Virus record (IMG/VR): IMGVR_UViG_3300010403_000061
Span: 1-21,730 of that record
Strand: one strand, 5' to 3'
Length of the DNA: 21,730 nucleotides
DNA from: a virus
The translations under genes were made by a program, and so were the position numbers. The notes beneath the pieces are model-generated. The model searched no databases, was not told the origin of the DNA, and was given only the letters and a program-made list of their open reading frames with translations. The first letter of the stretch is position 1. Each line of letters opens with the position of its first letter. This document shows, in pieces, positions 2,279 to 5,164 of this stretch.

Positions 2279-2307
2279 TTGACGAATAATAGTTTTGGTG
2301 TTAGCCT
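2279..2307 (+). promoter_or_regulatory. Candidate sigma-70-type promoter before the terminase leader
   Basis: TTGACG (2279-2284, one mismatch from the -35 consensus) is followed after 17 nt by TAGCCT (2302-2307, a weak -10 keeping the key T, A and final T). Transcription would begin near 2314, just before the first stem at 2325. The -10 is poor, so this is tentative. Its position at the start of the longest gene-free stretch and before the packaging genes gives it some weight. Confidence 0.3.
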
Positions 2308-2324
2308 AATGCCGTTGCACAAAA

Positions 2325-2424
2325 CCCATTGCCTTTTGAGACAACCATTTTCCGGTTGCCCTCCAAAGGCTTTTTTATTTTGTCTCACGCAATGGGGCAA
2401 CCGACTAGGAGCGAAAGCTTCTAG
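2325..2424 (+). ncRNA. Pseudoknotted leader RNA upstream of terS
   Basis: Nested stems are CCCATTGC 2325-2332 with GCAATGGG 2389-2396, and TGAGACAA 2337-2344 with TTGTCTCA 2380-2387 (8 bp each, perfect). The loop they enclose contains CGGTTGCCC (2353-2361), complementary over 9 nt to GGGCAACCG (2395-2403) directly after the outer stem. Seven of these pairs do not compete, giving an H-type pseudoknot. A separate hairpin, 2405-2424, has an 8-bp stem (one G-T) capped by GAAA and buries AGGAG (2407-2411). It could be a cis-regulatory leader, a small RNA or part of a packaging (cos/pac) site. I could not match it to a known family. Confidence 0.6.
2331..2381 (+). terminator. Possible intrinsic terminator (alternative fold)
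   Basis: GCCTTT (2331-2336) can pair with AAAGGC (2365-2370), immediately followed by TTTTTTATTTT (2371-2381). The stem is only 6 bp with a 28-nt loop, so on its own it is weak. It uses bases that also belong to the outer stem of the pseudoknotted leader, so the two folds exclude each other, as in attenuators. This is tentative. Confidence 0.25.
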
Positions 2425-2430
2425 CTCGTT

Positions 2431-2943
2431 TTGGATTCCAAAGAACTCACCAACCTTGGCAAAACTGACGCTACCGCTCCTCTCGTAGTCGGCAATACCG
2501 TATTTGATCCCCTCACATTCGCTCCTAAGATTGTTAAGTTCTCCCGCAAGCAATACCTCTTCCTCAACAACTACAAGCTAGGTATACCCCTCGAAGAAGC
2601 CGCCGCTAAGTCCGATCTCACCCTAGAACAAGCCGAACGATTCTTAGATAAGCCGGATGTGAGGGCGTGGCTAGAAGACCGCGCCCTTATGAATCACATT
2701 AAAACGGAGTGGGAAGAACCCGCCAAGTGGTGGCATATGGGCAACGAAGTGCTGGAAGGACGCCGGGAATTCTCTAAAAGCCAGCAAGTCGTCTGGGAAA
2801 ACTTCGGGGACCGGATCGTTCCCAAAAAGGGAACTCCGTCCGATAGTTCCCCCAAAATCACGATCAATATCAATCCTGAAGCAGTTAAAGAAGCTTTTAA
2901 GCGTCAAGAATCCATCGATACAGAGGCCACTAATGAAATGTGA
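2431..2943 (+). CDS. terS: Terminase small subunit
   Basis: It recognises phage DNA and loads it onto the large subunit for packaging. The 170-aa protein has an N-terminal helix-turn-helix-like region: FSRKQYLFLNNYKLGIPLEEAAAKSDL, roughly 37-63, then a second helix and WLEDRALMNHI near 80-90. The central part, EWEEPAKWWHMGNEVLEGRREF, is predicted to oligomerise. The C-terminal tail ITININPEAVKEAF is typical for binding the large subunit. The only start after stop codon 2422-2424 is TTG 2431. The sole nearby ribosome site (AGGAG, 2407-2411) is 19 nt away and inside a hairpin, so initiation is unusual. Its position two genes before the large subunit supports the call. The homology is from pattern, not a search. 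Confidence 0.75.
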   Translation: MDSKELTNLGKTDATAPLVVGNTVFDPLTFAPKIVKFSRKQYLFLNNYKLGIPLEEAAAKSDLTLEQAERFLDKPDVRAWLEDRALMNHIKTEWEEPAKWWHMGNEVLEGRREFSKSQQVVWENFGDRIVPKKGTPSDSSPKITININPEAVKEAFKRQESIDTEATNEM

Positions 2944-3238: not shown

Positions 3239-3632
3239 CATCGCCAAAGCGCTAGTGGGTCAAAAGTTACCGGCTTATCTGTCGGAGCCAGGCCTTCAGC
3301 AGCCCGCCGAGATGAGGGCCTTACAAGCTTTGAATACGGTCGGTGCTGGGATGGGTGCGGGTCAATTGGGCGGCGGGATAGGGGCGATTTTAGCGGGTAT
3401 GGGAAAGATGGCTCCAAGGGTATTGGCACAGCAAGCGGGAGCGATATTCCCGGAAGGAGCAGGAATTCCCAAGGGTAGGGAAGCAGTAAAAGAATTTTTC
3501 GATATATTGCCCGAATCGCAAAGGGCCTACAAAACCAACGAAGCGCTTCATGCCTTCCATTCCGAAATGATGGATTGGCCGCGTGTGCTGCAAGACAAGT
3601 GGGCGTTGTTAAAAAATCAGGCGGGGAATTGA
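3210..3632 (+). CDS. Ala/Gly-rich hypothetical protein, 140 aa
   Basis: It starts 29 nt inside the previous gene. The N terminus (SLSSKSSSIAKALVGQKLP) is polar. Residues about 43-66 are a Gly/Ala-rich hydrophobic run (VGAGMGAGQLGGGIGAILAGMG) followed by KMAPRVLAQQAGA. The rest is mixed helical. Such a run followed by [SA]P-R-x-L resembles, from memory, the C-terminal domain of large Ala/Gly-rich phage virion proteins, of which the gene at 20792 looks like an example. It may be a detached piece or a membrane-active virion peptide. It overlaps the terminase large subunit start (TTGA). Confidence 0.55.
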   Translation: MASLSSKSSSIAKALVGQKLPAYLSEPGLQQPAEMRALQALNTVGAGMGAGQLGGGIGAILAGMGKMAPRVLAQQAGAIFPEGAGIPKGREAVKEFFDILPESQRAYKTNEALHAFHSEMMDWPRVLQDKWALLKNQAGN

Positions 3633-5164
3633 ATACTGAAGTCAGCTTAGATCAAGTTCGAGAAGCTTGTAAGAAAAGTCTCTACTTTCTTTGTACCCAG
3701 ATTTTAGGGTTCAAGGATTGGGATACGGTTCATGACGATATTGAGAAAGTCCTAAACCGGAAGTCCCGTAAGAAAATGATCTTGATTCCCCGCGGCCATC
3801 TGAAGACCTCCGTAGTCACTAAAGCCTATAGCATCCAGCTTCTTTTGAGAGATCCTAACATCAGAATCTTGATCGCGAACCAAGTCTGGGATAAAGCGCG
3901 GGAAATGCTCTATGAAATCAAGCAAATGCTCTCCGATAAATCAGATCTCCCTAAACTTTTCGGGAACTTCGTCTCCGACCGATGGCGAGAAGATGACATC
4001 GTCATTAAGCAGCGAACCAAAGGACTTGCCGCCCCGACCATTGGTACAAGCGGAGTGGAGGCTGAACTTACATCTTCTCACTACGACGTTATCTTCCTGG
4101 ACGACTTGCAAGGGCTCCAAAACTACCAAACCCCAGAACAACGCGAAAAAGTAAAGCGCTACTACCGGAGCATGATGGATTTGCTGGAGCCGGGAGGCCT
4201 TCTGATTGTCATTGGTACGCGCTGGCATTTAGATGACGTGTATCAATACATCATGGACAACGAAGCTGAATACTTTGACGTGACGGTTAGGAAAGTGATT
4301 GAAAAGGGCAAAATCATCTTCCCCAAGAAATTCAATAAGAAGTTTGACCGGACGCTCAAGGCCTGGGTTGAAACCAAAGAGCCCACCATGGACTTTATCG
4401 AATATCTCAAGAAGCGTCCTTCCGAAGAATTCTATTCGCAGTACATGAACGATCCCATCGACTCCGAAAACCAGATCTTCAAGAAAGAATACTTTCGCTA
4501 CTTCGAACGTAGGCCCGAACGCCTCTTTGTAGGCATGACCATTGACCCGGCTATTTCCGAGAAGCAAAGCGCCGATTTCTTTGCCATTCGGGTAGACGCC
4601 ATGGATGAGGATTACAACATCTACGTTCTGGACTATTTAAGGGGTCATTGGAAGATCGCCGAGTCTGTAGACAACGTTTTTACGACTTACGTGAAGTGGA
4701 AGCCGTCCGTAGTGGGGCTTGAAACAGTCGCCTATCAGAAGGCTTTGAAGTATGTGATGGAAGGCGAAATGAGGAAAAGAGGCATCTTTTTCCCGATCAC
4801 GGAGCTTAAGCGCAATACCAACGAAAGCAAAGAATTCCGTATTAAGTCCTTGGAATCCTTTTACCGGGAGGGAAAAGTTTTTCATGCGAGTTGGATGGAA
4901 GGACGCGAAATGGAGCAGGAGCTTCTCCAATTCCCTAAAGGCAAAAACGACGACTTGATCGATGCTGGGGCATCCATGCTCGAAGTTTTGGTTCCTGGCG
5001 ATTCACTGGCAGCCAGTGACATCCCTGCCGGTAGTTGGGAAGACGAATTCCAAAAAGCTATCGGGCGTAGTCGCCGGGGCGACTTTTTCCATGAATCGCT
5101 TAACTGGCAGCCGCCAGCCCAAGAGCAACACGGTAAATCCTGGTGGGACAAAGTAAACCCGTGA
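3629..5164 (+). CDS. terL: Terminase large subunit
   Basis: This is the ATP-driven DNA packaging motor and nuclease. I choose TTG 3629 (511 aa), which forms a TTGA overlap with the preceding stop and follows GGCGGGG; GTG 3599 and TTG 3575 are in frame upstream. Positions from this start: Walker A-like PRGHLKTS 54-61; Walker B VIFLDD 154-159; coupling motif GTRWH 196-200. The RuvC-like nuclease has Asp306 in TIDPA, Glu365 in GLETV and Asp441/442 plus Asp445 in KNDDLIDA. Both ATPase and nuclease parts are complete, and length is normal for the family. The portal gene follows after 91 nt. Activity is inferred from motifs. Confidence 0.95.
   Translation: MNTEVSLDQVREACKKSLYFLCTQILGFKDWDTVHDDIEKVLNRKSRKKMILIPRGHLKTSVVTKAYSIQLLLRDPNIRILIANQVWDKAREMLYEIKQMLSDKSDLPKLFGNFVSDRWREDDIVIKQRTKGLAAPTIGTSGVEAELTSSHYDVIFLDDLQGLQNYQTPEQREKVKRYYRSMMDLLEPGGLLIVIGTRWHLDDVYQYIMDNEAEYFDVTVRKVIEKGKIIFPKKFNKKFDRTLKAWVETKEPTMDFIEYLKKRPSEEFYSQYMNDPIDSENQIFKKEYFRYFERRPERLFVGMTIDPAISEKQSADFFAIRVDAMDEDYNIYVLDYLRGHWKIAESVDNVFTTYVKWKPSVVGLETVAYQKALKYVMEGEMRKRGIFFPITELKRNTNESKEFRIKSLESFYREGKVFHASWMEGREMEQELLQFPKGKNDDLIDAGASMLEVLVPGDSLAASDIPAGSWEDEFQKAIGRSRRGDFFHESLNWQPPAQEQHGKSWWDKVNP

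Follow-up and report, generated by a model that had tools for sequence, protein, structure and literature searches.

A candidate two-state RNA leader upstream of terS in phages represented by metagenomes

The IMG/VR virus record IMGVR_UViG_3300010403_000061 (21.7 kb; all 21,730 nt were analysed and are referred to here as the window) contains a non-coding gap at 2269-2430 that holds no plausible gene and ends directly at terS, which is followed by terL (3629-5164), the portal gene and the gene for the major head protein. The question raised by this locus is what a cluster of complementary blocks does in such a gap. A preliminary description of the sequence suggested a regulatory leader or a packaging site, among other roles, and fitted the blocks into one pseudoknot. 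The interpretation favoured here, which is given about an even chance, is that the gap encodes a two-state RNA leader (attenuator) heading the late operon of packaging and head genes.

Occurrence and layout of the leader

Relatives were collected from IMG/VR by a terL search followed by terS and terL profile searches, a single terS query beforehand having returned zero relatives. Twelve readable leaders have the layout described below (the window, L002, L003, L007, L011, L013, L016, L017, L022, L071, L073 and L077), and identity to the window's terS is 42-66% in most of the 11 relatives. Searches of GTDB genomes with the terS and terL profiles found no prophage relatives, and neither a DNA similarity search of 50,697 phage records nor an exact-pattern scan of viral contigs found relatives of the leader RNA. 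The nearest named phage, MW202554 (terL about 36% identity), lacks such a leader in its upstream region, and no family in PHROG or Pfam matches the TerS of these phages. The phage group with this leader is little known and metagenome-only.

In all 12 leaders a promoter, the hairpins T1 (except in L003), M and T2 and the terS start codon follow one another in the same order (Table 1). The preliminary description had recorded the complementary blocks and the GAAA-capped hairpin, which stand, and had overlooked the promoter, T1, M and the TTTT of T2 that runs into the TTG start. The promoter of the window has a poor -10 box and falls under the consensus threshold of the prediction tool, which did not call it; boxes of the form TTGAC(A/G) and TAnnnT separated by 16 or 17 nt occur at the equivalent place in nearly all relatives; in L022 the -35-like box is TTTACA. 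The predicted RNA start is at about 2313-2315, and no -10-like pause element was obvious by eye in 2308-2330.

Table 1. Positions of the leader elements and of terS in the window
Feature	Positions	Strand	Description and basis
Sigma70-like promoter	2279-2307	+	-35 TTGACG 2279-2284, 17-nt spacer, -10 TAGCCT 2302-2307; read from the sequence
S1 5' strand	2325-2344	+	Blocks A (2325-2332) and B (2337-2344); helix list, conditional shuffle p = 0.001
T1, intrinsic-terminator-like	2331-2381	+	Hairpin 2331-2370, followed immediately by TTTTTTATTTT
S2 5' strand	2353-2361	+	Block C, within the T1 3' arm; conditional shuffle p = 0.002 in the window
S1 3' strand	2380-2396	+	B' (2380-2387) and A' (2389-2396)
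M, local hairpin	2380-2400	+	UUGUCUCA-CGCAA-UGGGGCAA; excludes S1 but can coexist with T1 and T2
S2 3' strand	2395-2403	+	Overlaps the M 3' arm and the T2 base (2402-2403)
T2, terminator-like hairpin	2402-2432	+	Leader fold, terminator scan
terS (170 aa)	2431-2943	+	Translation; homologues in relatives

An in-frame stop at 2422-2424 leaves the TTG at 2431 as the sole possible start of terS, placing the start codon at the end of the T2 U-tract. Start codons (TTG, GTG or ATG) lie directly after this tract in all leaders except L022. Three more distant relatives differ at this site, the start of terS lying about 6 nt past a sigma70-like -10 box (TTGACT..TAAACT CTTCTC ATG; about 3026-3061 in L023 and L025, about 2990-3028 in L021), which suggests a leaderless terS mRNA in them. 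Two coding explanations of the gap were rejected: a leader peptide, for which an open frame at 2279-2488 exists in the window and L002 but is broken in L007, and frameshifting or bypass into terS, since the upstream genes already end before the promoter.

The DNA upstream of the leader has features of its own. Small cysteine-containing ORFs at 545-712 and 2074-2268, the second of which ends just before the promoter, have no Pfam match and look paralogous, both carrying a C-terminal motif like ADPEPxVxIGT. A stretch of about 110 nt at 1957-2066 is bounded by GACCCTG and CAGGGTC. A tRNA-like element picked out by eye in the fold of 1940-2080 was discarded, as ARAGORN found no tRNA there and the fold was no better than those of shuffled sequences; the tRNA and tmRNA search returned none.

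Terminator-like hairpins and the helices that exclude them

The region 2310-2435 has a folding energy of -43.6 kcal/mol, whereas shuffled sequences average -29.0 (z = -4.35). The three perfect blocks of the preliminary description are exact as given, and the leader (2308-2430) has no further perfect helix that reaches 8 bp. The claim of structure beyond chance is supported, as just 1 of 3000 dinucleotide-preserving shuffles contained at least three such helices. Their arrangement in one H-type pseudoknot is not supported as proposed, as blocks A and C compete for 2395-2396, and formation of A and B (16 bp) leaves the C strand only 8 nt of linker. Blocks A and B instead constitute one long alternative helix, S1, and block C another, S2, and both compete with the two terminator-like hairpins. 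The layouts of HDV-like self-cleaving ribozymes were also considered and did not match in strand order.

T1 has a folding energy of -16.8 kcal/mol in the window (2323-2379), and equivalents of -17 to -24 kcal/mol that end directly at a U-tract are present in 11 of the 12 leaders, L003 being without T1. For M the shuffle test gave p = 0.021 in the window and, across 11 leaders, a combined Fisher p of about 2e-8. T2 comprises an upper stem with a GAAA loop at 2405-2424, which is the hairpin of the preliminary description with one pair found to be G-U, above a short base (CGA 2402-2404 with TCG 2426-2428) and a bulged C2425; a 3-bp base (CGA/UCG or CGG/CCG) under a one-base bulge recurs in several leaders. 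The stem is followed by TTTT (2429-2432) in the window, and in nearly all leaders the base adjoins U4-U8 before the start codon, the mere four U's of the window and several relatives making for a weak terminator. These structures suggest that T1 and T2 would terminate transcription, and a promoter followed by a terminator-like hairpin with a U-tract before the first gene is, as far as structure goes, the arrangement of an attenuator leader.

S1 and T1 are mutually exclusive, both using 2331-2344. S1 pairs the 5' arm of T1 and a few upstream bases with the M region, and is present as a perfect helix of 8-11 bp in 12/12 leaders; that of the window, where block C is the longer, consists of block A extended through B and 2314-2318/2398-2402. 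Its arms have no sequence common to the different phages. Two-sided changes that retain pairing were found at three pairs between L071 and L073 and at one pair between L013 and L071, and clear two-sided changes also separate the window from L002. The helices were out of register in a MAFFT alignment of the leaders, so covariation was assessed by conditional resampling and from hand-picked helix arms, in which pairing is 100% by construction, so that information comes solely from how varied the pair types are. The resampling (1000 resamples per leader, single p-values floored at 0.001) preserved the pairs of T1, M and T2, since T1 and M impose complementarity themselves. S1 was stronger than the resamples in 11/11 leaders tested (each p <= 0.04), with a combined Fisher p of about 4e-18 that is somewhat optimistic because L007 and L011 are closely related. 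The lack of covariation that the preliminary description had named as telling against its stems thus did not arise for blocks A and B, and the leader possesses a mutually exclusive alternative fold with covariation support.

S2 is less widespread, being convincing in about six to eight of the 12 leaders only. The conditional test gave p <= 0.02 in the window, L002, L016, L077, L017 and L007 (Fisher about 3e-5 for the 11 leaders together, against 6e-4 and 8e-3 in a less refined test that preceded it) and no support in L011, L013, L071, L073 and L022, the last four of which lack S2. A candidate S2 was named in eight leaders and overlaps the T2 base in 8/8; its 4-nt loop in L003 casts doubt on the helix there. 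Among the nearest relatives of the window, S2 changes on one side only (to G-U), and covariation therefore supports it less strongly than S1.

The competing folds are nearly equal in computed stability. In the window the S1-fold has -42.7 kcal/mol and the T1-fold -40.9 kcal/mol; the difference, computed for nested folds only, ranges from -1.8 (window) to +6.8 kcal/mol and is within about 3 kcal/mol in 8 of 11 leaders. In a sequential folding run with 14 nt hidden, the probability of T1 was about 1.0 until the 3' strand of S1 emerged, followed by a sharp switch to S1, which was transient in L077 and L007. This switch occurred in the window at an RNA polymerase position of about 2413, when the 3' arm of T2 was still incomplete, and the 3' strand of S2 would emerge at about 2417, ahead of the full T2 3' arm. 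In the sequence fetched (549 kb, of which about 268 kb is distinct; both strands scanned), the pattern of a terminator hairpin whose 5' arm is matched by a perfect complement further downstream occurs in ten terS leaders and at only two sites elsewhere.

A two-state attenuator and its rivals

The constant order of promoter, RNA structures and start codon in 12 phages, together with the strong compensatory change, bears out the suggestion of a regulatory leader. In the proposed attenuator, RNA polymerase would start at about 2314 and, in the default state, the RNA would fold locally as it emerges, forming first T1 with its hairpin and U-tract. Polymerases that escape T1 would be followed by formation of M and then of T2 as a second terminator, so that most would halt and late gene expression would be low. 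Were T1 unformed or bypassed, for example through a phage or host factor that keeps hairpins from the RNA exit channel, its free 5' arm would pair with M as S1, and the 3' arm of T1, likewise free, would pair with the base of T2 as S2 in the window and the relatives closest to it. This second helix is the pseudoknot; it would weaken T2 and so favour read-through into terS. The sequences show the elements themselves, their mutual exclusion, their similar computed stability and their conservation through compensatory change; termination at T1 and T2, promotion of read-through by S1 and S2, the direction of control and the trigger of the switch are inferred.

Several observations count against the attenuator, namely that S2 is missing in four leaders and doubtful in L003, which also has no T1, that the U-tract of T2 is weak in the window and several relatives, that the S1 strand is placed past T1, that six relatives yielded no known Q or antiterminator family, and that the late operon shows no enrichment of internal terminators. 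As a polymerase has already passed the T1 U-tract when it makes the 3' strand of S1, S1 is powerless to save that polymerase from T1.

It is possible, though on the unlikely side, that control lies with an antitermination protein of the lambda Q kind acting on a condensed pR'-tR' unit of promoter, two terminators and late operon, in which case S1 and S2 would be merely the final fold of the read-through RNA. As in the lambdoid pR'-tR' region, where a late promoter and terminator(s) precede the late genes and read-through with the antiterminator Q decides late expression (PMC6606751), the leader has a promoter, a terminator-like hairpin within about 60 nt and then late genes. The more distant relatives L033, L019 and L024 have simpler leaders, in which a single strong terminator lies just before terS or a short way upstream, and Q is known to block hairpins at the exit channel (PMC6606751, PMC9378689). 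However, such a mechanism leaves the compensatory conservation of S1 beyond T1 and M unexplained, and no protein matching PF06530 or PF03589 was found in six relative records, several of which are fragments, other families of such proteins also existing. Internal terminators are not in excess within the late operon, which therefore gives no indication of a need for a processive antiterminator beyond the leader. The terminator-like hairpins of the leader also differ from the terminators of lambda in being part of a bistable RNA whose alternative helix is long-range, and in that the U-tract of the second continues into the terS start codon.

The two terminators may alternatively be coupled by RNA memory, the outcome at T1 freeing arms for S1 and S2 and thereby disabling T2, although this is unlikely and hinges on S2, which is not universal. 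Under such coupling, one decision taken soon after promoter escape would carry over to the second terminator, and entry into the late operon would be all-or-none with no dedicated antiterminator protein involved.

Control of translation, through ribosome access to the start codon after T2, or protection of the mRNA 5' end by S1 is judged quite unlikely. The absence of a Shine-Dalgarno sequence from terS, which many other genes of the window possess, the position of the T2 base immediately 5' of the start codon and the start of S1, in many leaders only a few nt from where the RNA is predicted to begin, would all fit. A translation switch would, however, have no need of U-tracts directly after T1 and T2, which are hallmarks of terminators, and the start codon is unpaired in both folds.

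A gene for a small structured RNA that acts in trans, with a length of about 64 nt if it ends at T1 and about 115 nt if it ends at T2, is improbable, although an RNA stopped at either hairpin would be short and structured, with its own promoter, a compact fold and terminator-like ends. Structured cabRNAs from the terS-terL region of staphylococcal phages, which are sensed by bacterial CBASS cyclases, offer a parallel (PMC10686824), although cabRNA lies inside the terS-terL coding region and lacks the promoter-terminator architecture of the leader. Against a trans-acting RNA, no sequence for target or protein binding is conserved beyond the helices, the longer of the two RNAs would contain a U-tract internally, and Rfam 15 has no match, either in the window at the gathering threshold or, with E values of up to 10 admitted, in 1900-2500.

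Although cos and pac sites are often situated directly before terS, as the leader is, the packaging site suggested in the preliminary description, with inverted repeats bound by TerS, is very improbable, as the S1 arms are wholly different in sequence between phages with similar TerS and TerL, which fits base-pairing and not DNA recognition by a conserved terminase, and the promoter position is fixed; as weak further evidence, three contigs of 41-42 kb (L073, L007 and L077; 41.3, 41.4 and 42.5 kb) end 1-2.6 kb upstream of terS and not here. These contig ends may mark physical genome ends.

Relation to known RNA regulators

Other known leaders resemble the two-state attenuator in part. In the fluoride (PMC11077080) and ZTP (PMC10085676) riboswitches a pseudoknot strand doubles as the base of an intrinsic terminator, and S2 and T2 exclude each other in a similar way. 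The leader differs from these riboswitches in that it has no conserved ligand-binding sequence, that S2 is not universal, and that an extra upstream terminator-like hairpin, T1, provides both strands of the alternative fold. A rough alignment of 11 leaders contains few invariant columns besides the U-tracts that could be nucleotides of a ligand pocket, which does not correspond to a metabolite riboswitch. The put RNA of phage HK022, described as two stem-loops (PMC9378689), is likewise a short structured phage RNA right after a promoter with a possible influence on termination; it differs, by description only, in having no terminator of its own or bistable fold. A description of such a leader was not found in the literature searched, most subscription journals lying outside that search.

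How late genes are kept silent when neither Q nor a late sigma factor can be recognised is an open question for most uncultivated phages. If the attenuator reading is true, a compact RNA switch would head the packaging operon of phages that are represented by metagenomes only, in a design that consists of an intrinsic terminator followed by a strand that undoes that terminator.
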